Of a DNA stretch of 64,000 bases, positions 26,952 to 37,035 are shown in pieces; position 1 is the first letter of the stretch, and the number at the start of each line of letters is the position of its first letter. The DNA is taken from contig NZ_CP126980.1 in assembly GCF_030252345.1 (NCBI RefSeq), positions 1,201,501 through 1,265,500 on the forward strand, in the 5' to 3' direction. The notes beneath the pieces are model-generated. The model saw only the letters and a program-made list of their open reading frames with translations, was not told where the DNA came from and did not search any database. Origin of the DNA: Actinoplanes oblitus (lineage in GTDB: Bacteria; Actinomycetota; Actinomycetes; Mycobacteriales; Micromonosporaceae). A program made the translations under genes and the position numbers.

Positions 26952-28160
26952 ATGGCCGTCCTGGCGGAGTCACCGCGACGTTCGCCGCGCCCGGCCCGGC
27001 TCGGCGCCGGTGACCTGGTCCGGCTGGGCGGGGCCGGCCTGCGCTCGCGGCCGCTGCGGGCGGTGCTCTCGGCGCTGGGCATCGCGATCGGCATCGCCGC
27101 GATGGTCGCCGTCGTCGGCATCTCGGCCTCCAGCCGGGCCAACCTGGACCGGGCCCTGGCGCAGCTGGGCACCAACCTGCTCACCGTCTCGCCGGGCAAC
27201 ACCATGTTCGGCGAGGACGCCACCCTGCCCGACGAGGCGCTCTCGATGATCAAACGGATCGGGCCGGTCACCTCGGCCACCGCGGTCGGCAAGGTCACCG
27301 ACACCGCGATCTACCGCACCGACCGGATCCCGTCCGGCGAGACCGGCGGGCTCGCCCTGCTGGCCGCCCAGCTCGACCTGCTCACCACGGTCGGCGGCAG
27401 GATGGCCGAGGGCAGCTGGCTCAACGCGGCCACCGCCGAGTACCCGGCGGTGGTGCTCGGGTCGGCGGCCGCGCGCCGGCTGGGCGACGTGCCGGCGGTC
27501 TACATCGCCGGCCGCTGGTACCGGGTGATCGGCGTGCTGGACAGCGTGCCGCTCGCCGCGGAACTGGACGACGCGGTACTGATCGGGTGGGACGCGGCGA
27601 AGACGTACCTGAGCTTCGACGGGCACGCCACCACCGTCTACACCCGCTCGGTGGAGGCCCGGGTGGAGGCGGTGCGGGCGGTGCTCGCGGCGACCGCCAA
27701 CCCGAAGAACCCGGACCAGGTGCAGGTGTCCAACCCGTCCGACGCCCTGCTGCCGAAACGGGCCGCCGGCACCACGTTCAACGCCCTGCTGCTCGGCCTC
27801 GGCGCTGTCGCGTTGCTGGTCGGCGGCATCGGGGTGGCCAACACCATGGTCATCTCGGTGCTGGAACGACGGGCCGAGATCGGGCTGCGCCGCTCGCTGG
27901 GCGCCACCCGCGGGCAGATCCGCATCCAGTTCGTCGCCGAATCGCTGCTGCTGTCGCTGCTCGGCGGGCTCGGCGGGGTGCTCGGCGGGATCGCGGTGAC
28001 CGCGCTCTACGCCACCACCCAGGACTGGCCGATCGCCGTCCCGCTCTGGGTCACCGCCGGCGGGGTCGCCGCCACCCTGGTGATCGGTGCGATCGCCGGT
28101 CTCTACCCGGCCGTCCGGGCGGCCCGGCTGTCACCGACCGAGGCGCTGGCCGCGGCCTGA
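26952..28160 (+). CDS. MacB/FtsX-type ABC permease
   Basis: A 402-residue permease with one N-terminal TM helix (about 38-60), a large extracytoplasmic MacB periplasmic core domain (about 65-270), and three C-terminal TM helices in FtsX order. The LERRAEIGLRRSLGATRGQIRIQF segment is the typical coupling region after TM2. Such systems act by mechanotransmission and export peptides, lipoproteins or antibiotics. It forms a complete lipoprotein-adaptor-ATPase-permease unit with the genes upstream. Confidence 0.94.
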   Translation: MAVLAESPRRSPRPARLGAGDLVRLGGAGLRSRPLRAVLSALGIAIGIAAMVAVVGISASSRANLDRALAQLGTNLLTVSPGNTMFGEDATLPDEALSMIKRIGPVTSATAVGKVTDTAIYRTDRIPSGETGGLALLAAQLDLLTTVGGRMAEGSWLNAATAEYPAVVLGSAAARRLGDVPAVYIAGRWYRVIGVLDSVPLAAELDDAVLIGWDAAKTYLSFDGHATTVYTRSVEARVEAVRAVLAATANPKNPDQVQVSNPSDALLPKRAAGTTFNALLLGLGAVALLVGGIGVANTMVISVLERRAEIGLRRSLGATRGQIRIQFVAESLLLSLLGGLGGVLGGIAVTALYATTQDWPIAVPLWVTAGGVAATLVIGAIAGLYPAVRAARLSPTEALAAA

Positions 28161-28410: not shown

Positions 28411-28481
28411 TGATCCGTTCTGGGAGCGATCCCGTATCGATGGCCGAAGCAAGTCTTTGCCAGGGGGAGAGGCGCCGGCCA

Positions 28482-29489
28482 ATGTATCGGTCCAAAATCA
28501 GCAGCAAACCGCGTCGCTGGAAGGTGGTCGCGGTCGTCGGGGTCGCGGTGACCATCGCCGGCATCGGACTCGGGGTGGCTTCGGCCGCCGAGTCCACGCC
28601 CACCGTCAACTGCCCGGACGTGAAGATCAACGTGGCGGTGCCGGCCCAGGCGCAGAACGAGGTCAACCGCAACCTCGACCTGCTGAAGACCCAGATCGCC
28701 GAGGCGAACAAGCGGATCGCCGACACCAAGGGCCAGGGCGGCGCCAACTTCATCCAGAACGCCATCCTCGGCCCGCTGAAGGACAAGCGGTTCGCCGCCA
28801 TCAGCCGGATCGAGACGGCGATCGGGCGCAACGCGGCGAAGCCGAACCTGAACGCCGGCGGCCTGGCCGCCTGCACGCTCAACAAGGACGGCGGCGCGGC
28901 GCCGGCCAAGCCGGTGGCCACCGTGACCAACGCGGCGCCCGGCGCGAACCTGGGCATCCTGACGAACAGCTGCGACACCAGCAAGCTGACGCGGCACGAC
29001 GGTTTCCAGAAGGGCGACCGGTGCGTCTCCACCGAGTTCGGTGAGGTCGGCTCGGCGGCGAACAACCCGTCGCTGCTGATCACCGGCGCGCCCCGCCAGG
29101 TCAACCGGAACCAGGCCTTCACCCTGCAGGTCAGCACCCGCAACCTGATCCGCGACCGGTTCCTCGCGGCCGGCCAGGGCGGTTACTACGTGGAATCGAG
29201 CGTGCTCAAGAACGGCCTGGTGCGCGGCCACTTCCACACCGCGTGCCGGATGCTGGCGAGCACGAACGAGGCGCCGACCCCGGAAGGCGTCCCGGCGTTC
29301 TTCGTGGCCACCGAGGACAGCAAGGGCGGGCGGACGCCGGACACGGTGACCATCCAGGTCCCGGGGCTGCCGCAGTCCGGGCTCGCGCAGTGCGCGTCGT
29401 GGGCCGGTGACGGCTCACACCGGATTCCGATGATGGAGCGCGCCAACCAGACGCCGGCCTTCGACACGGTCCGCATCCGGGTCCGCTGA
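28482..29489 (+). CDS. Secreted protein of unknown function
   Basis: A 335-residue protein with a long signal peptide (RRWKVVAVVGVAVTIAGIGLGVASAAE, cleavage near residue 36). The mature part has an N-terminal helical stretch (about 55-105, EVNRNLDLLKTQIAEANKRIADTK) and a beta-rich C-terminal region of about 180 residues with four to six Cys that may form disulphides. No catalytic motif is recognised. GGGGGAGAG lies 12 bases before the ATG at 28482. The gene ends in a strong terminator and is the last host gene before the genomic island. Confidence 0.8.
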   Translation: MYRSKISSKPRRWKVVAVVGVAVTIAGIGLGVASAAESTPTVNCPDVKINVAVPAQAQNEVNRNLDLLKTQIAEANKRIADTKGQGGANFIQNAILGPLKDKRFAAISRIETAIGRNAAKPNLNAGGLAACTLNKDGGAAPAKPVATVTNAAPGANLGILTNSCDTSKLTRHDGFQKGDRCVSTEFGEVGSAANNPSLLITGAPRQVNRNQAFTLQVSTRNLIRDRFLAAGQGGYYVESSVLKNGLVRGHFHTACRMLASTNEAPTPEGVPAFFVATEDSKGGRTPDTVTIQVPGLPQSGLAQCASWAGDGSHRIPMMERANQTPAFDTVRIRVR

Positions 29490-29547: not shown

Positions 29548-29590
29548 GGCGCGCCCCGTAGGATTCGAACCTACGACCGACGGATTAGAA
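29548..29590 (-). repeat. Left attachment site: displaced 3' end of tRNA-Arg
   Basis: Carries the T arm and part of the anticodon arm of a tRNA-Arg but no 5' half, so it is not a tRNA gene. It differs from the intact copy at three positions, two of which are paired T-stem positions (a T:A pair instead of C:G on the displayed strand), so it retains a foldable T arm. After integration this is the original host end; the intact gene now carries the element's version. Confidence 0.88.
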
Positions 29591-29785: not shown

Positions 29786-30712
29786 CTACCCCAGGGCCGA
29801 GACGATCTCGGTGGCGAGGTCCATGCTGCCGGCGGCGACGAATCGCTGTCGCCGGTCCATCGCCTTGGCTACCTCGTCGAACGTGTCGAACCCGTAGTCA
29901 AGGGATACGGGCTTGCCTTCCAGGTCAAGCACTGCTCCGCCGGAGGCGTGCAGGATGTAGTGCCCTGGTGCGAGGTCCCACACTGCGAAGCCCTTGGCGA
30001 ACTCGATGACGGACTCGGTCATACCGGCCGCGACATGGCACAGGCTGACCGACCCGAAGTCGACGCCGATGCGGCCCCGGCTCTTTCCGTCCGTGCCGGG
30101 CGTGTCCAACGCTTCAATGAGCCGGGTCTGCTGAGACAGGGGGATGAACCGCTCACCCGCCTTCATCAGGAAGTTGGTGACCAGGGACTCGGAAAGCTTC
30201 TTCGTCGAGCGCTGCTTCAGCTCGAACGTGTCGGAGTCCGCCGTGATGACGAAAGCGCGGTCAACGCCCTGGTCGTCACGTGCGCCGACGTAGAGCTGAA
30301 GGTGATGGAAGATGTCGCCCACCACGGCGACGATCGGCTGAGCCGCTGCGCGCGAGTAGACCATCACGTGCGTGTAGCCGAGCAGGCCCCGTACCGCCAG
30401 TTCGCTGGTGTCCAGGGGATCGACGAGCACGCACAGATCAGGGTCGGAGTTGTCGCCGATGACCTCCGGTTCGGCTTCCTCGGAGGCGTAGACGAACGAT
30501 CCGAGGATGGGGGTCAGGAGTTCCCGGTACCGGCGATGCATCCACAGGTCATGCTCGGACAGGAAGTTGTCCTCGTGGCGCAGGTTCTCGCTCTCGCCGC
30601 GCCTGCCGGTCAGAGCCGCTTCGATGAGTCGTGGCCGCAGCTCTAGCATCACCCCTCTCACCGTCTCGGCGATTTCGTGAGCGAGGGGTGGCATGTCCTT
30701 GGCCTGCTCCAT
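29786..30712 (-). CDS. Inositol-monophosphatase-superfamily phosphatase
   Basis: A 308-residue enzyme of the IMPase/FBPase/CysQ superfamily. The metal-binding residues are E78-E79 (ASEEAEPE), D98 and D101 in VDPLDTSE (DPxDGT motif, here with Ser/Glu variation), and D246 in AVWDLAPGHYILHASGG. It removes a phosphate from a small molecule: inositol phosphate, nucleotide 3'-phosphate or a sugar phosphate. It is the second gene after the regulator (19-bp gap, GGAGA ribosome site). In this cluster it may act opposite to the kinase at 34156-34986; this pairing is inference. Confidence 0.85.
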   Translation of the reverse strand: MEQAKDMPPLAHEIAETVRGVMLELRPRLIEAALTGRRGESENLRHEDNFLSEHDLWMHRRYRELLTPILGSFVYASEEAEPEVIGDNSDPDLCVLVDPLDTSELAVRGLLGYTHVMVYSRAAAQPIVAVVGDIFHHLQLYVGARDDQGVDRAFVITADSDTFELKQRSTKKLSESLVTNFLMKAGERFIPLSQQTRLIEALDTPGTDGKSRGRIGVDFGSVSLCHVAAGMTESVIEFAKGFAVWDLAPGHYILHASGGAVLDLEGKPVSLDYGFDTFDEVAKAMDRRQRFVAAGSMDLATEIVSALG

Positions 30713-30731: not shown

Positions 30732-31937
30732 TCAGCGCAACTCCAACGGCGGTTCGATACCGGGTGGGCTCATCGTCGCTGCGATGAACACCGCCTCGAA
30801 AGTTGCCGCCTGAATGATCTTTGCTCCGGTGAGTTCTTCGAAGCTCTCGACTTCAAGCGTGTTGCCCTTCGTCATAGCTCCGAACACGGCGAAGTACAAC
30901 TCGGCACCGGGGTATCGCTCGCGTAGCTCTCGGGCCACCAGGCCCACCACGTCAGCATGCTTGACCTCGAAGTCGCAGATCACGATGACCGGAGCCTCCA
31001 CCGAGTCGGGGAAGTGTGATTCCGGCGCGAAGCTGATCGCGTTCCTCGCGCGGTTACAGCGGAGGTACCCGATCGAGCATCGGTTGAACTGAGCCGACGC
31101 CAGGAAGGTCGCCATCACGAGGCCGGCCTCATTGATGCCGAAGCAGATGTCCGCGTCCAGGCGGCGACCGAGACTCTTGATCTGCCTCATGATGCGCTGA
31201 ATCCCGAAGCCGAACGTGTTCCAGGTCAGATCTAGCAGGTGCCCGGGATTCGGGTTAGGCAGCGAGAACGCGCAGATGGCGGGGTTGCCGTTGTCAATCG
31301 TCGGCACCAGGAGGTTGAAGTCCGCGCCGATGATGTTGTCGACGTCCGGTGATCCGTCCACCACCGCGTTGCGTACGCGGAGCGTGTCGCTTGTCGCCGG
31401 AATGGAGGAGCGGACGGCGGTCATCTTCAGCGCCAACTGATCTTCTGGGGGCAGCTTTTCGTAAGCCTCCTGCACCAGGTCGCCTGGGGAGATCACTTCT
31501 TCCCCCATACGATGCGGGCTACGCCCGTATGCAGCCGCCAGGATGAGCAGGCTGGCGTACGACGGCGGAGATCCGACCCCAGCAGTTCCGCGCGACCGCG
31601 CCCAGCTCTCCCAGGCGTTGATCGTTGTCCCGCCCAACGTGGTCTGGTTGCCCGCGACGTCGTTGTATCGCACTGCGGCCTGGTCCTGGGAGAGCCCTGC
31701 GGCGTACCTGAATGCCTGAATGCTCGGTAGGTCGTCGTGCCGCTCCATCAGCTTGCGAGCCGCAGCCTTGACCGATCCGTACTCGAAGAAGAGGGCTTGA
31801 CCTTGGCGGGCAAGTTCCCGTCCACGCTTCTGCGGCGATTGGTTCTGTGGCGTTGTACTGCCCAAGATGGCCCTCCGACGCCCCGACCTACGGCTTCGGT
31901 CCTCACTGGTCGTGACGGCCACCTTACTGTTGCCCAT
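30732..31937 (-). CDS. XRE-type regulator fused to a phosphoribosyltransferase-like domain
   Basis: A 401-residue protein. Residues about 40-65 are a helical preamble; residues about 73-145 form a helix-turn-helix of XRE type (FRYAAGLSQDQAAVRYND, INAWESW, SYASLLILAAAYG). Residues about 240-355 resemble a type I phosphoribosyltransferase fold: GFGIQRIMRQIKSLGRRLDADICFGINEAGLVMATFLA, then VIVICDFEVKHADVVGLVARELRER at the place of the PRPP loop, but without the usual Thr-rich loop, so it more likely binds than converts a ligand. ATG 31937 lies inside a perfect palindrome, suggesting autoregulation. It is divergent from the radical SAM operon it probably controls. Confidence 0.72.
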   Translation of the reverse strand: MGNSKVAVTTSEDRSRRSGRRRAILGSTTPQNQSPQKRGRELARQGQALFFEYGSVKAAARKLMERHDDLPSIQAFRYAAGLSQDQAAVRYNDVAGNQTTLGGTTINAWESWARSRGTAGVGSPPSYASLLILAAAYGRSPHRMGEEVISPGDLVQEAYEKLPPEDQLALKMTAVRSSIPATSDTLRVRNAVVDGSPDVDNIIGADFNLLVPTIDNGNPAICAFSLPNPNPGHLLDLTWNTFGFGIQRIMRQIKSLGRRLDADICFGINEAGLVMATFLASAQFNRCSIGYLRCNRARNAISFAPESHFPDSVEAPVIVICDFEVKHADVVGLVARELRERYPGAELYFAVFGAMTKGNTLEVESFEELTGAKIIQAATFEAVFIAATMSPPGIEPPLELR

Positions 31938-31949
31938 CCTGATGGGCAA
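31930..31949. promoter_or_regulatory. Perfect palindrome overlapping the regulator start codon
   Basis: TTGCCCATC and GATGGGCAA form a perfect 9-bp dyad with a 2-bp centre; the ATG of the regulator is inside one arm. Further candidate sites in the divergent region 31950-32170 are GCACAC/GTGTGC (about 32020-32035) and TTGAC/GTCAA (32063-32080). Confidence 0.55.
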
Positions 31950-32170
31950 TGAATGCCAAGGCGCGTAGATCCGCAGGTAAAAGCTGCCCAGAGATCCGGT
32001 CGTCATTGGACTGGCACACAGGTGTGCACCCCGATCCGCAAGTGCGACTGTTCTCGCAGCGCTTGACCTTACGGAGTCAACGCCCCAGTTCCCCGCTCGC
32101 CGTCCCAGCACCGTGAAGCGAAGGCGGCGAGCGGCCATCAACGTGCAAATCCGGTGCGAGGAGGTGAGCA

Positions 32171-32437
32171 GTGGGGCACCGCGTTCCGTCCGTGAAGCGT
32201 GAGATTCTGCCCGGCGTCACCCTGACGGTGAGCGTCATGGGCGGCTACTCGATCGAGCGCGACGGCGAATACATCGGCTGGATTCATGCCAGCCTGGGAG
32301 ACCGCTGGAACGCATACGTCAGGCGACCGGGGAGCAGTGGGGACCTGGTCGGTCGCTATGCCCAGGACGACGCCGTGAGAGCCATCGTGGCCGCATGGGA
32401 AGCAGGTGCGGCCTTGCCCAACAAGTGCCGACCGTGA
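32171..32437 (+). CDS. Small protein of unknown function, first gene of radical SAM operon
   Basis: An 88-residue protein from GTG 32171, preceded by a strong GAGGAGGTGAG ribosome site. The sequence GGYSIERDGEYIGWIHASLGDRWNAYVRRP (positions about 24-53) has alternating hydrophobic residues as in a small beta-sheet, followed by a helix (AQDDAVRAIVAAWEAGA). I recognise no family. A role as recognition or leader-binding protein is conceivable given its position, but it does not look like a canonical RRE domain. GTGA overlap with the next gene shows coupling. Confidence 0.7.
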   Translation: MGHRVPSVKREILPGVTLTVSVMGGYSIERDGEYIGWIHASLGDRWNAYVRRPGSSGDLVGRYAQDDAVRAIVAAWEAGAALPNKCRP

Positions 32438-32757
32438 CGGGGCAGCGAGAGTATCCACCTGCCGCGCTGGTGCACTCCGAGTCGTGCCGGGACGTAGAGG
32501 GCATACGTGCGAGTGGCGCAGTCCTGATTCCGATGCTCACGCCGGCCATCGCCCGTGCGTACCCGAACGCTCGGATGCATTCGTGTTACCACTTCACGCT
32601 GCATGCGCGCGGGCTGGTGGAGACCATGCACTACCCGCCACATCCGTACGAGGAGTCCACGGTGGTCTACGCGGACGCAACCATGCCGCTCTGCAAGGTG
32701 TGCATGGGGACGCATAGCGCCCTTGACCGCCTGATCTTGCCGCCAGAGGTGCGCTGA
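32434..32757 (+). CDS. Small Cys/His-containing protein of unknown function
   Basis: A 107-residue protein from GTG 32434, overlapping the previous stop by 4 bp. It contains six His and four Cys; LCKVCMGTH at about residues 88-96 is a CxxC zinc-ribbon-like knuckle, and MHSCYHFTLH at about 47-56 may complete a metal site. Tandem HYPPHPYEESTVVYAD suggests a beta-rich fold. I do not recognise the family. The position between a small protein and the radical SAM enzyme suggests an accessory role in the same pathway. Confidence 0.7.
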   Translation: MTGQREYPPAALVHSESCRDVEGIRASGAVLIPMLTPAIARAYPNARMHSCYHFTLHARGLVETMHYPPHPYEESTVVYADATMPLCKVCMGTHSALDRLILPPEVR

Positions 32758-32790
32758 CACCCGCTTCCATCTCCGAGAACAGGGGACCGG

Positions 32791-33915
32791 ATGTACCAGG
32801 CAATCATCAGCCCACAGGAAAATCTGTTCGTCGCCGTCCGGGCTGGCCAACAAGCGGCGATGCAAATGCCCTCCGGCTACTACGCCGAACTCGCCGACCG
32901 AGCGGACACAAACGACATCGTGCCGGACTGGTTCAGCGATGCCGCCCGCCAAGCGTGGCAGATCGAACTAGCCGACTTGCCCATCGGCGACGTGCTCATC
33001 GTCCGTCCGCCGTCGGTCTCTCCCGTGACCTACAGCCGCGCCTCATGGGAGATCAACAAAGGCTGCAACTTCTCCTGCGAGCACTGCTACCTGGAACAGC
33101 GCCCGTTCACTGGCCTACCCCTGCCGGAGAAGCTGCGACTACTCGACATGCTTCGCGACATGGGAGTGATCTGGTTCGAGATCACCGGCGGGGAACCGCT
33201 CATCGACCAGGACTTCATTCCCGCCTACGAACACGCTCACGAAGCCGGAATGATGATGGAGATTCTGACCAACGGCTCCCGGCTCTACCGTGACGAGTTG
33301 CTTGAAGCGTTCACCTCACGTCGCCCACACAAGATCACCGTCTCCATGTACGGGGCCAGCCCGGAGACAGCCGACGCGCTCACCCAGACACGGGGCGCGT
33401 TCAAGAACGCCTATCGCGGTCTCGTTGCGGCGGCTGGAGCCGGTTTACCCCTTGAGGTCACGCTGATCATCACCAAGCACAACGTCGAGGAACTGAGCGA
33501 GATGCGTGCGATGGTGCGCGATCTGGGCCTGCCGTTCAAGGAGTACGGCTCCATCTCTCCGACCTATACCGGCAAGGGCACGACCCTGGAGACACAGGTC
33601 CCGGGCCTCATCGGTAAGAGCGACATCTTCCAGGGCTGCCCTGCCGGTCACACGTCCTTCCACGTCGACCCGCTCGGGTTCACCACGATGTGCAAGGTCG
33701 GCCGGGACAACCCCATCAACTTGATCACCGAAGGGCCTGATGGCCTGCTGCGTCTGCCCGCCATCGCAGACGCCCAAATGCTTCGCACGGGTGGATGTAC
33801 GGGCTGCAAGCTCTCGTCCGCCTGCCGGGTATGCCGACCCATGGCACGCGTGTACCAGGAGGCGAAGGCACCACTCAGTCACTATTGCCAGCACGGCATG
33901 AAGGAGGAGTCATGA
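32791..33915 (+). CDS. Radical SAM/SPASM peptide-modifying enzyme (candidate)
   Basis: A 374-residue enzyme. An N-terminal ~80-residue region precedes the radical SAM core; C92, C96 and C99 form CxxxCxxC in GCNFSCEHC, and GGEP lies at residues 133-136. A SPASM-type C-terminus supplies C283, C301 (GFTTMC), C336, C339, C345, C348 and C366, enough for two auxiliary iron-sulphur clusters; the spacing CX2CX5CX2C differs by one residue from the usual CX2CX5CX3C. Enzymes of this type modify ribosomal peptides (thioether, C-C or ether cross-links, epimerisation, decarboxylation). The next gene is a 54-residue peptide whose ATG overlaps this stop (ATGA), the usual arrangement for a substrate or partner. 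Confidence 0.88.
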   Translation: MYQAIISPQENLFVAVRAGQQAAMQMPSGYYAELADRADTNDIVPDWFSDAARQAWQIELADLPIGDVLIVRPPSVSPVTYSRASWEINKGCNFSCEHCYLEQRPFTGLPLPEKLRLLDMLRDMGVIWFEITGGEPLIDQDFIPAYEHAHEAGMMMEILTNGSRLYRDELLEAFTSRRPHKITVSMYGASPETADALTQTRGAFKNAYRGLVAAAGAGLPLEVTLIITKHNVEELSEMRAMVRDLGLPFKEYGSISPTYTGKGTTLETQVPGLIGKSDIFQGCPAGHTSFHVDPLGFTTMCKVGRDNPINLITEGPDGLLRLPAIADAQMLRTGGCTGCKLSSACRVCRPMARVYQEAKAPLSHYCQHGMKEES

Positions 33916-34076
33916 GCGCCATCCCCGTCGAGATCATCAGCCGTACCCCGAACACCGGCAACGCCGCGAAGCAGTTCCCCCGGCGGCAAGAGCCGGCCGG
34001 GATCGTCGTCACTCAGATCGACGCCCTGACCAAGGGCAACGAGCGCGGTTGCGGTGACGACAACCCGTACAACTAG
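33912..34076 (+). CDS. Candidate RiPP precursor peptide ending GCGDDNPYN
   Basis: A 54-residue peptide starting at ATG 33912 with a strong AAGGAGGAG ribosome site and a 4-bp overlap with the radical SAM gene. The first ~40 residues are leader-like (MSAIPVEIISRTPNTGN with hydrophobic IVVTQIDALTKG before the end); the last nine, GCGDDNPYN, are compact and carry the only Cys (C47) and the only Tyr (Y53), plausible targets of radical chemistry. Position and size fit a RiPP precursor; no named precursor family is recognised. The cysteine-near-C-terminus and terminal Tyr recall mycofactocin MftA only superficially. Confidence 0.72.
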   Translation: MSAIPVEIISRTPNTGNAAKQFPRRQEPAGIVVTQIDALTKGNERGCGDDNPYN

Positions 34077-34155
34077 CAGCATGTAGGGGTCGCCCCGGAG
34101 GGCTGTCGTGCCATGGCGTGGCTCACCGGGGCCGTCCCGAGCTAGGAGAAGGACT

Positions 34156-34986
34156 GTGCCTACCAGCCGCATTCCATACGCCGAATTGCCGGGAGCTGTT
34201 CGTCACGCGGTCGAGGACATCACCGGATCCCCCGAGTCGCTGGAGCCGGCAAGCGACGGCCTGAACAGTGCGATCGCGGTCAAGCTGAACAGCCCCAAGG
34301 GCGCGTACTTCGTGAAGGCTCTACCGGCTGATCACCGCTGGGTCCGGACGCAGCAACGCGAAGCAGCCATGGCGCCGTACCTAGACCTGGTCGCTCCGAA
34401 GCTGCACGCCCGCCTGACAGAGGGCGGGTGGGATGTCCTTGTCTTCGAGGCGCTGGAGGGACACCGCGCGGACTACGCGCCGAACTCGCCGGACCTACCC
34501 ATCGTCGTCGACCTGCTTCGCCGTATCGCTGGGATCCAATGTCCGCCAGTGACACTGCGATGCGCTGAGCAGCGACTCCAGGCGTACGCCGGAGCAGACG
34601 AATTGCGCTACTTCGCCGGTGACGCGCTCCTGCACACCGACCTGAACAACGCCAACGTCATCGTCACCGGCGACCGGGCGCGCGTCGTGGACTGGGGATG
34701 GGCAACGCAGGGCGCCCCTTGGCTGGATGCCGGCTACTGGGTGATCTGGCTCATCGCCGCAGGGCATACGCCCGACTCCGCCGAAGCGTGGGCATCGCTA
34801 TTGCCGTCCTGGCAAGCGGCTCATCCGCGAGCGGTCAACGCCTTCGCTGGCGCCAACGCACGCATGTGGGCTGACATCGGCGGCGCCGAACCGGACGCGT
34901 GGACACGCCGGCTTATCGATGCTTCCGCGGCCTGGCGTGACTATCGAGGAAGGAATACCGAAGCAGAATTGACTGAATTCAGTTGA
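34156..34986 (+). CDS. Aminoglycoside-phosphotransferase-fold kinase
   Basis: A 276-residue APH-family kinase from GTG 34156 (AGGAGAAGG upstream). ATP-binding Lys is K54 in YFVKALP, the catalytic loop is HTDLNNAN (H160, D162, N167), and the metal-binding DWG is at D179. Such enzymes phosphorylate small molecules (aminoglycosides, choline, homoserine) or peptides' side chains. It follows the peptide gene after 79 bp that contain a CCCCGG/CCGGGG dyad. In this cluster it may phosphorylate the modified product, e.g. as self-protection or maturation, with the divergent IMPase removing phosphate; this is inference. Confidence 0.85.
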   Translation: MPTSRIPYAELPGAVRHAVEDITGSPESLEPASDGLNSAIAVKLNSPKGAYFVKALPADHRWVRTQQREAAMAPYLDLVAPKLHARLTEGGWDVLVFEALEGHRADYAPNSPDLPIVVDLLRRIAGIQCPPVTLRCAEQRLQAYAGADELRYFAGDALLHTDLNNANVIVTGDRARVVDWGWATQGAPWLDAGYWVIWLIAAGHTPDSAEAWASLLPSWQAAHPRAVNAFAGANARMWADIGGAEPDAWTRRLIDASAAWRDYRGRNTEAELTEFS

Positions 34987-35199: not shown

Positions 35200-36027
35200 T
35201 CATGGCTTCAGGCTGTCGACAATCCTACGCCAGATGCTCATACGCACCATTTCATCAGGATTCGACCCTTGCTCCGGCAGGGCGGGCAATTGTCGCGCGT
35301 ATACGACGCGCCGGTCCGGGAGTGGGGGGCATGTCGCGGCCCAGATAGGCGTCCCAAGCATAGCAGCGCGGCCCTGATCTGAGCCTTCGGGATAGTCGAT
35401 ACGGCCGAAAACTTGAAATAATACTTCAAGCTCTGCGCGCCCGGCGATGTGTGATCTACCTAGAGTGGTATAGATGGTCATCGCCGTTGTGACGGCCTTC
35501 TCTATGTCCTCTTCCTCACTCCAAGCGATAGCTCCGTTGATGTCCTCGTTGCCGCGTGAGAATGAAGAGACAAGCTTCGCCATTCCTACTGGCGCCGACG
35601 GGTACCATCCACCGCGAGCTTTGTAGTCATCATCAGACGCATATCCCTCGAAATTTCGCAAGGACCCACAAAGCGCGGCGAAGACCGGACCTTCCTCGGT
35701 ATCCGTGAAGCAGCTAAGCCAAGCAACGCGGTGACCGCCCTCTAGAAACGGAACCTCAGCCCATGTGACTTCCATGCGAGCCCGCACGTAAGTGCCAGGG
35801 TGAAGCAGTGTGCCGGTGTTGTCGCGAATTGCCGCTGTAACCTGCCGAGCGAGCCAGTAATCATTATTCTCTAGCTTACGCCTTTCCCCCCGGGCATCGA
35901 GGCCGGGTACCTTCGCCGTCACGCTGAACTCGACGCCGCCTTTCTGTGCCTCTGCTCTTTGGTGCAATTCGCGAAGTAGGCGGCGAGAAAGATAGATGTA
36001 CGACCTAGGGTGAGCGTCGATGGCCAT
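35200..36027 (-). CDS. Hypothetical protein (possibly DUF7019/SAVMC3_10250-like)
   Basis: A 275-residue soluble protein with lower GC3 than the host genes. The start RSYIYLSRRLLRELHQ resembles the opening of the SAVMC3_10250 (DUF7019) family of Streptomyces proteins of unknown function, followed by an alpha/beta pattern with GVEFSVTAKVPG, VRARMEVTWAEVPF and HRVAWLSCFTDTEEGPVFAALCGSLRNFEGYA. No catalytic motif is visible. It may belong to the island's original cargo rather than to the peptide operon. The family match is tentative. Confidence 0.7.
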   Translation of the reverse strand: MAIDAHPRSYIYLSRRLLRELHQRAEAQKGGVEFSVTAKVPGLDARGERRKLENNDYWLARQVTAAIRDNTGTLLHPGTYVRARMEVTWAEVPFLEGGHRVAWLSCFTDTEEGPVFAALCGSLRNFEGYASDDDYKARGGWYPSAPVGMAKLVSSFSRGNEDINGAIAWSEEEDIEKAVTTAMTIYTTLGRSHIAGRAELEVLFQVFGRIDYPEGSDQGRAAMLGTPIWAATCPPLPDRRVVYARQLPALPEQGSNPDEMVRMSIWRRIVDSLKP

Positions 36028-36217: not shown

Positions 36218-36526
36218 CTACGCTGCTCGACTAGCGACGGCGAAACGTACGTTCACGCCGAGACCTCGACCGTGCTCAGACTGTGCCGGCTTCCAATCCA
36301 AGAACTGCACTTCCTGAACCCGTCCGAGCGAAGGTGCAAACTTCCCTTCTTCGCCGTTCAGGCATGCCTGAATTCGCGACCTGATTTCGTCGAGCGTGTA
36401 GGGGACGTATGCGCGAATGCTAATCTCCACAAGACGAGTGACAGCCTTGCCGTTACGGTGTTGGCTAACAAGCGTCCCGCTTGCGTATGCCTCCAGATCA
36501 GAGACTCTTGCAGAGGCATTATGCAT
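36218..36526 (-). CDS. Hypothetical protein in island
   Basis: A 102-residue frame with mixed GC3, like the neighbouring island gene. VTRLVEISIRAYVPYTLDEIRSRIQACLNGEEGK (positions about 29-63) looks like real alpha/beta protein, but no family is recognised and no clear ribosome site precedes ATG 36526. The 190 bp between it and the upstream gene hold a GGGCAGG/CCTGCCC dyad near 36155-36190. Moderately likely to be a real gene. Confidence 0.45.
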   Translation of the reverse strand: MHNASARVSDLEAYASGTLVSQHRNGKAVTRLVEISIRAYVPYTLDEIRSRIQACLNGEEGKFAPSLGRVQEVQFLDWKPAQSEHGRGLGVNVRFAVASRAA

Positions 36527-36635
36527 GGGTTCGCTGGCGAACTGCTTGCCTTCCGCCGTCGCATGGCCCCTTCCGGGGCCTCGATCGGGTTACGTGCGTC
36601 GTGGCGAACCCGTCAGCGGCGGAGAACTGCCAGGG

Positions 36636-36869
36636 ATGCCCTTCGCCGATGCCGCCAAGGCCCTGGCGCGGATCTTCGTGGGCAGCGGCTTCCCGTGGGC
36701 CACGCCGCCCACCTTTCGGCGTACGGTGGCGACGCTGCTCGACCAGGCCGGCGTTCCGATCGCAACGATCGCCGACCAACTCGGCCACACGGACCCCGCC
36801 ATGACGGCCAGGGTTTATCTCGGCCGCGACCTGATGGGCGACAAGCCCTCGGTCGCTGAGCATCTGTGA
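36636..36869 (+). pseudogene. Tyrosine integrase, C-terminal remnant
   Basis: About 78 residues similar to the end of actinobacterial phage-type integrases: TPPTFRRTVATLLDQAG then ADQLGHTDPAMTARVYLGRD. Present are the box II Arg (in TFRR), the His of LGH and the nucleophile Tyr of VYLGRD. Missing are the arm-binding and core N-terminal domains with the first catalytic Arg, and the usual HxFR His reads Pro. Upstream the frame has no integrase similarity, so the gene lost about 300 codons by deletion or rearrangement. Location beside the tRNA end is as in functional elements. Confidence 0.82.
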
Positions 36870-36905: not shown

Positions 36906-36960
36906 TTGACCACGAGAGCATGCGGCATCAGCCGCTGAGGCCCTGGTTAATACAGGGAGT

Positions 36961-37003
36961 GGCGCGCCCGGCAGGATTCGAACCTGCGACCGACGGATTA
37001 GAA
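36961..37003 (-). repeat. Right attachment site within tRNA-Arg 3' half
   Basis: Counterpart of 29548-29590, running from just outside the discriminator base to the anticodon region. It is the element-donated 3' end that restores the tRNA. Confidence 0.85.
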
Positions 37004-37035
37004 GTCCGTTGCTCTATCCGCTGAGCTACGAGCGC
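36963..37035 (-). tRNA. tRNA-Arg (anticodon TCT)
   Basis: A 73-nt cloverleaf read on the minus strand. The acceptor stem GCGCTCG/CGGGCGC has one G:T pair; D arm GCTC...GAGC; anticodon stem ACGGA/TCCGT with loop CTTCTAA (anticodon TCT, reading AGA); T stem GCAGG/CCTGC with TTCGAAT loop. The 3' CCA is not encoded. It is the insertion target of the adjacent island. Confidence 0.95.

Follow-up and report, generated by a model that had tools for sequence, protein, structure and literature searches.

A conserved cassette of a radical SAM enzyme, a short peptide and a kinase or acetyltransferase in actinobacteria, probably a pathway for a ribosomally made, modified peptide

Introduction

Is a short peptide encoded directly behind a radical S-adenosylmethionine (SAM) enzyme the substrate of that enzyme, and which of the neighboring genes belong to the same system? 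We addressed this for a locus in a 64,000-nucleotide stretch of the Actinoplanes oblitus genome (contig NZ_CP126980.1, positions 1,201,501 to 1,265,500), which is called the window throughout and to which all coordinates refer unless a locus is named. A preliminary description had proposed that the window holds an undescribed system for a ribosomally synthesized and post-translationally modified peptide (RiPP), made up of a radical SAM enzyme with a SPASM-type C-terminus, a 54-residue peptide, a kinase, two small proteins and a divergent regulator-phosphatase pair on a tRNA island. All genes that it named are in place in this 9.8-Mb, single-contig genome. Comparison among relatives showed a conserved core of three genes, for the enzyme, the short peptide and either a kinase or an acetyltransferase. 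By the same comparison, the peptide is very probably modified by the radical SAM enzyme, and we consider it highly likely that the cassette encodes a RiPP pathway, with the steps proposed in the Discussion, from an actinobacterial family that is widespread but without a name.

Results

Relatives of the enzyme numbered 1003 in a protein search (E ≤ 1e-20; 120 listed), and those of the peptide 12, the window's own included. Loci were collected by a scan with one genome per species (53 loci, L005 to L057), by a search of 300 Micromonosporaceae genomes (L058 to L086), and with aligned sequences of the distant branch as query. The last was used both phylum-wide, where 6 of 396 genomes including the own one were positive, and in the genus of genome G460, from which the best matches were taken (L119 to L147). 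That genus is probably Streptomyces, because most of the named loci of the species scan are Streptomyces. The distribution of the cassette is patchy, with 25 positives among the 300 Micromonosporaceae genomes (own included) and, for the genus of G460, 73 among 392 genomes. Loci of the own-genome search (L001 to L004) and the window itself (L061 and L091) were not entered. From the 117 places that were, 12 partial enzyme matches (L046, L049, L052, L054, L055, L056, L057, L081, L082, L085, L086 and L092) were dropped before counting, leaving 105 near-full-length loci; because the sets share some places, a second count was made of non-identical enzyme sequences (93 among the 105).

Directly downstream of the enzyme gene, 104 of the 105 loci encode a peptide with the motif C-x(1-5)-[DNEH][DS][NAQ]P[YHFN], followed by zero to two residues. 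The coupling of enzyme and peptide seen in the window is therefore kept across relatives, and the refuting case named beforehand, homologues that consistently lack the peptide gene, is not what this count shows. Included in it are L135, L136 and L138 (ending DDNPN), which the search pattern missed and which were added by eye, as well as L038 and L040, which end CNDDNPYR and were counted as Tyr loci; there the pattern had caught SQPG ("APH, G" entries). The one locus without the motif peptide, L053, holds a decayed copy: the leader is interrupted by a stop, the end of the motif is lost ahead of the acetyltransferase gene, and the enzyme lacks its end. Among the dropped loci, five had a motif peptide downstream (L046, L052, L054, L085 and L092), three had one on an inverted part (L049, L081 and L086), and L055 had a frameshifted-looking peptide. 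L056, L057 and L082, of which L082 stops at a contig edge, showed no motif peptide. In L049 (6259-8651), one strand encodes enzyme residues 1-217, and the other, nearby, encodes residues 210-358 together with the precursor and the kinase. This split gene resembles an inversion within the operon, and L081 and L086 are arranged alike; a switch, decay or an assembly error are possible.

The GCGDDNPYN end of the peptide, singled out in the preliminary description, proved to be its conserved part. In 31 diverse precursors Met1, Cys47, Asp50 and Pro52 (window numbering) are invariant and Asp49 and Asn51 are conserved in at least 90%, while the middle is variable. In the wider locus set, Asp50 is replaced by Ser in L013 and L083, and Asn51 by Ala or Gln in some loci. 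As the C-terminal motif is near-invariant while the middle varies, the alignments give the precursor an anatomy of leader, linker and core. Its length among relatives ranges from 43 to more than 60 residues, and the core motif holds one or two Cys. In the window, the ribosome-binding-like sequence GAAGGAGGAG lies immediately 5' of the peptide start codon. When the 31 precursors were used as a profile, 1013 protein clusters matched at E ≤ 1, and the 120 listed include names from Glycomyces, Actinophytocola and Protofrankia; the motif was present in 126 of 126 matches checked, which are the top-ranked listed ones and hence biased to good matches. Because 104 of the 105 loci share the C-terminal motif and the profile finds 1013 clusters, the peptide is, on this comparative record, not a chance open reading frame. 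The L013 (9125-9295) and L083 precursors end CGDSNPYGD, with the second Asp changed to Ser, a natural variant useful for locating the crosslink acceptor. The L051 precursor (P0160, 9122-9268) carries the UniRef name "Albusnodin family lasso peptide"; no lasso-type gene occurs among the nine window proteins scanned, and the name is probably an automatic misnomer.

The enzyme matches PF04055 at 55 bits. Its CxxxCxxC motif occupies residues 92-99 (~33064-33087), with C92, C96 and C99 invariant in 58 homologues. A C-terminal set of Cys (residues 283-366, ~33637-33888) is likewise invariant except for C366, which is conserved in at least 90%. Seven Cys at the C-terminus stand in SPASM-like order with the spacing Cx2Cx5Cx2C; the usual SPASM spacing is Cx2Cx5Cx3C. 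SkfB is the top Foldseek match of the enzyme model, SkfB and SuiB lead the fold matches, and viperins are also among them. The N-terminal domain is predicted as three strands followed by three helices (predicted local distance difference test [pLDDT] score mostly >90). The SuiB and SkfB alignments, for which only the ranges were available, begin at enzyme residues 1-4, and the order of strands and helices agrees; from this model we infer an RRE-like domain. No NCBIfam match of the enzyme reaches its cut-off; the mycofactocin maturase model comes highest (80.2 versus 265 bits). Among seven proteins submitted to PADLOC, no defence match appeared except viperin-type models on the radical SAM enzyme (pVip, E 6e-16, across the radical SAM core), and a reading as a defence system was rejected on this result.

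The third slot of the cassette, behind the peptide gene, is taken by an APH-fold kinase in 75 of the 105 loci, by a GNAT acetyltransferase in 29 and by a contig edge in one (L030); in L089 and L134 the kinase match starts 640-820 bases downstream. The kinase had been named as part of the set, and finding the same family in this slot bears that out. PF00583 scored above cut-off in all three acetyltransferases tested. The kinase model (pLDDT 95.8) has an APH-like fold, and its nearest folds, choline and homoserine kinases, corramycin phosphotransferase and aminoglycoside kinases, are tied within ~1 Z. K54, E69, H160, D162, N167 and D179, which we take to be the catalytic residues of the APH fold, are invariant in 35 homologues, and because of this conservation the kinase is probably active.

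The occupant of the third slot goes along with one residue of the precursor. Tyr follows the motif Pro in 64 of 64 non-identical kinase loci (62 plus L038 and L040), and in the 27 non-identical acetyltransferase loci with a precursor this position holds His (20), Asn (3), Phe (2) or Tyr (2). Close relatives of the enzyme do without Tyr, so that Tyr is kept where the kinase is. In these alignments, it tracks the kinase rather than the radical enzyme, and the simplest reading is that the kinase would act on or recognize the motif Tyr. Tyr as a requirement of the radical enzyme was rejected, as the enzyme gene is intact in the GNAT branch, where His, Phe or Asn stands at this position. The chance that at least three residue changes would all fall in the 26-row GNAT branch (20% of tree length) was estimated at 0.008, a naive, post hoc figure and no proper test.

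Four further genes had been counted as parts of the system, and none of them stayed in it: the regulator-phosphatase pair occurs mostly without a radical SAM gene, and beyond the window the two small proteins turned up in the nearest relative only. The divergent pair itself is present, and the IMPase identity of the phosphatase was borne out (PF00459, 53 bits). The assignment of the regulator as XRE-PRTase was unproven in sequence searches, which gave no Pfam or NCBIfam match at E ≤ 0.1 and one chance-level PDB match (E 0.81). Of 200 Micromonosporaceae genomes, 15, the own one among them, contain regulator and IMPase as a pair; the two are adjacent in 16 of 16 fetched loci. A radical SAM match is missing from 12 of these 16, within flanks of up to 1.5 kb; it is present in the window, L149, L151 and L152, and L162 has a kinase-matching fragment. 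L005 to L008 also carry the pair next to the enzyme. Since it mostly travels without the radical SAM gene, membership of the pair in the peptide system was rejected; by gene neighborhood it is a separate, portable two-gene module, mostly with other neighbors.

Matches to the two small proteins outside the window (tblastn, E ≤ 1e-3) were confined to L005 among the 53 loci of the species scan and to L064/L149 among 29 and 16 loci, and these proteins were dismissed as core components on that ground. The tight gene overlaps described for the operon hold for the two small-protein genes (GTGA) and for enzyme and peptide (ATGA); the Cys/His-rich gene and the radical SAM gene are separated by a 33-base gap. 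Upstream genes in the 53 loci and the window, named by eye, included XRE-like proteins with long C-terminal regions (24), Cys/His-rich proteins (17), NUDIX-like proteins (9 loci) and DUF5753-like regulators (9 loci). Because these genes vary between loci, the core is, as far as gene order tells, wired to local regulators. In a Pfam scan of nine window proteins, the radical SAM enzyme, the IMPase and the DUF7019 gene gave matches, and the peptide, the two small proteins, the regulator and the kinase gave none.

The placement on a tRNA island stands in so far as the window has a tRNA-Arg(TCT) at 36960-37035, a flanking repeat and an integrase remnant. The two copies of the direct repeat of the tRNA end, 7,413 bp apart, enclose the cassette, the regulator pair, the DUF7019 gene and the integrase remnant (Table 1). 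The site is empty in two of four congener loci examined: L095 and L096 have the left neighbor gene beside the same tRNA and no island match. Of the other two, L098 has the tRNA at a distance of ~1.2 kb, and the flank of L097 has none. A tRNA scan of 51 loci placed tRNA-Arg(TCT) beside the cassette in L007, L008 and L009. L007 and L009 have a 398-residue integrase, whose end, compared by eye, closely resembles the window remnant. Both loci also have flanking repeats (40 and 36 bp); no flanking repeat was found in L008 within the locus. With the repeat, the remnant and the empty relative sites all present, the window island looks like a 7.4-kb decayed integrative element, a sibling of the L007/L009-type elements. 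Most other scanned loci show no tRNA, and for this reason the tRNA-integrating vehicle is, within this sample, not general to the cassette. Left of the island, the gene at 28473-29489 (cf. 26952-28160) encodes a protein with many matches per congener genome and eight in the own genome.

Table 1. Positions of the cassette genes, neighboring genes and island boundaries in the window
Feature	Position	Strand	Basis or remark
IMPase-family gene	29786..30712	-	PF00459; separate module, same island
Divergent regulator-like gene	30732..31937	-	Separate module, same island
Small protein, 88 residues	32171-32437		Open reading frame
Cys/His-rich protein, 107 residues	32434-32757		GTGA overlap with preceding small-protein gene
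Radical SAM enzyme, SPASM-type C-terminus, 374 residues	32791..33915	+	PF04055, Cys conservation, SuiB/SkfB fold matches
N-terminal domain of enzyme, residues 1-80, RRE-like (inferred)	32791..33030	+	Predicted model
Precursor peptide, 54 residues, ends RGCGDDNPYN	33912..34076	+	ATGA overlap with radical SAM gene
Presumed core RGCGDDNPYN within precursor	~34044-34073	+	Alignments
APH-fold kinase, 276 residues, GTG start	34156..34986	+	Model, fold matches, invariant residues
DUF7019-family gene, SAVMC3_10250-like (below NCBIfam cut-off)	35200-36027		Between cassette and integrase remnant
Open reading frame with tyrosine integrase remnant (C-terminal part)	36417..36869	+	PF00589, 27.8 bits, residues 95-135
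tRNA-Arg(TCT), integration site	36960..37035	-	Same tRNA adjoins cassette in L007, L008, L009
Left copy of tRNA-Arg end (attL-like)	29548..29590		40/43 bases equal to 36961-37003
Right copy inside tRNA-Arg (attR-like)	36961..37003

Discussion

We propose the following course for the pathway. The RRE-like N-terminal domain of the enzyme would bind the precursor leader (M[ST]AVxVEI...), and radical attack in the C-terminal motif would lead to a thioether, of the sactipeptide/ranthipeptide type, between the invariant Cys and an Asp or Asn of DDN. By analogy this Cys-Asp/Asn thioether is the most likely bond, a candidate to which we give slightly less than even odds. The APH-fold kinase would then modify the product. 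The motif Tyr is the likeliest phosphate acceptor, an assignment suggested by the sequence pattern that we regard as tentative. In the related branch the GNAT acetyltransferase in the same slot would acetylate the product, as tailoring or self-protection; leader removal and export, if any, would fall to genes outside the cassette. One may go further and picture a peptide, crosslinked by radical chemistry, whose C-terminal DDNPY bears a phosphotyrosine placed by the kinase; in a sister branch, acetylation would have taken over from phosphorylation and freed the position for His, Phe or Asn. The third gene would then provide a swappable capping or self-protection step, and the whole would be spread partly by small integrative elements. 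We think it rather unlikely that this fuller picture holds in all its parts.

Several observations weigh against a RiPP pathway of this design. The chemistry is a prediction from sequences and modelled folds. The Pfam SPASM model does not match the enzyme, and BlsE, a small-molecule enzyme, is both its second-best Foldseek match and, before SkfB, its best solved relative by sequence profile. The Cys-to-DD spacing is unlike between branches, so that the ring size would differ between them. Two acetyltransferase loci, L073 and L075, retain Tyr; the kinase/acetyltransferase trait changed twice on the tree, with one supported independent pair, which leaves the phylogenetic test underpowered. No dedicated protease or transporter was recognized by eye among the six gene families found, from home-made gene calls, in at least 9 of the first 53 loci.

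Three other explanations were weighed. The same pathway may operate with the kinase or acetyltransferase in self-resistance, inactivating a peptide antibiotic that the radical SAM enzyme makes, rather than in maturation. Interchange of kinase and acetyltransferase is expected of antibiotic-protecting enzymes, so the swap seen here fits self-protection, and the top Foldseek match of the kinase is such an enzyme; we regard this as a serious possibility, if one that would sooner prove wrong than right. The product might instead be an intracellular peptide of cofactor or signal type, following the logic of mycofactocin or pyrroloquinoline quinone, and not an antibiotic. We consider this improbable, given that the mycofactocin maturase match reaches 80 bits against a cut-off of 265 and that sparse distribution and carriage by an integrative element fit an accessory trait better. 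A small molecule or nucleotide as the enzyme's substrate, with the peptide as a regulator or toxin instead, would agree with the BlsE, viperin and pVip matches and is very improbable in view of the NCBIfam viperin score (45.4 bits versus a cut-off of 180), the C-terminal Cys set and N-terminal domain aligning with SuiB and SkfB, and the concentration of peptide conservation in the C-terminal motif.

Under the proposed RiPP pathway, genes that databases label only "hypothetical protein" or "radical SAM protein" join a kinase in one testable pathway. The swap of kinase and acetyltransferase, tied to one substrate residue, would predict the site of the kinase, a tailoring site proposed from evolution before chemistry. 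Radical SAM maturases, short precursors, APH kinases and GNAT enzymes are known kinds; the precursor family matches no Pfam or NCBIfam model. No description of this gene set was found in the literature by title and abstract start, and the motif words CNDDNPY, CGDDNPY and DDNPYR did not occur in a full-text search, both within sources that leave out subscription journals. The earlier statement that no named RiPP class has this set agrees with these searches, once regulator and IMPase are taken out of the set.

Among known systems, thioamitide and kintamdin clusters likewise encode a phosphotransferase; according to PMC9415263, the APH-type KinD of kintamdin acts with a lyase on Ser/Thr. Here, in contrast, there is no conserved Ser/Thr column in the 31 precursors, and the window motif GCGDDNPYN contains neither residue. 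No HopA1-type lyase was present among the nine window proteins scanned, and the relatives were not searched for one. Mycofactocin (MftA/MftC) shares an actinobacterial radical SAM maturase, the best NCBIfam match, and a short precursor modified at its C-terminus. It differs in its partner genes and in its C-terminal motif, which is VY, and the enzyme scores far below the cut-off of its model. The streptide enzyme SuiB, which installs a carbon-carbon crosslink in SuiA, is 13% identical to the enzyme, and the residues needed for that crosslink are not conserved in the motif here. Sactipeptides and ranthipeptides (SkfB/SkfA, CteB/CteA, freyrasin and NxxcA) resemble the cassette in having a radical SAM enzyme with extra Cys clusters adjoining a short, Cys-bearing precursor, and here, too, Cys is conserved in the core (Cys47). 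The present family is set apart by a short C-terminal motif with one or two Cys and by its kinase or acetyltransferase partner. For the bond predicted here, the Cys-Asp thioether of freyrasin and the Cys-Asn thioether of NxxcA, as described in PMC8326336, are precedents.

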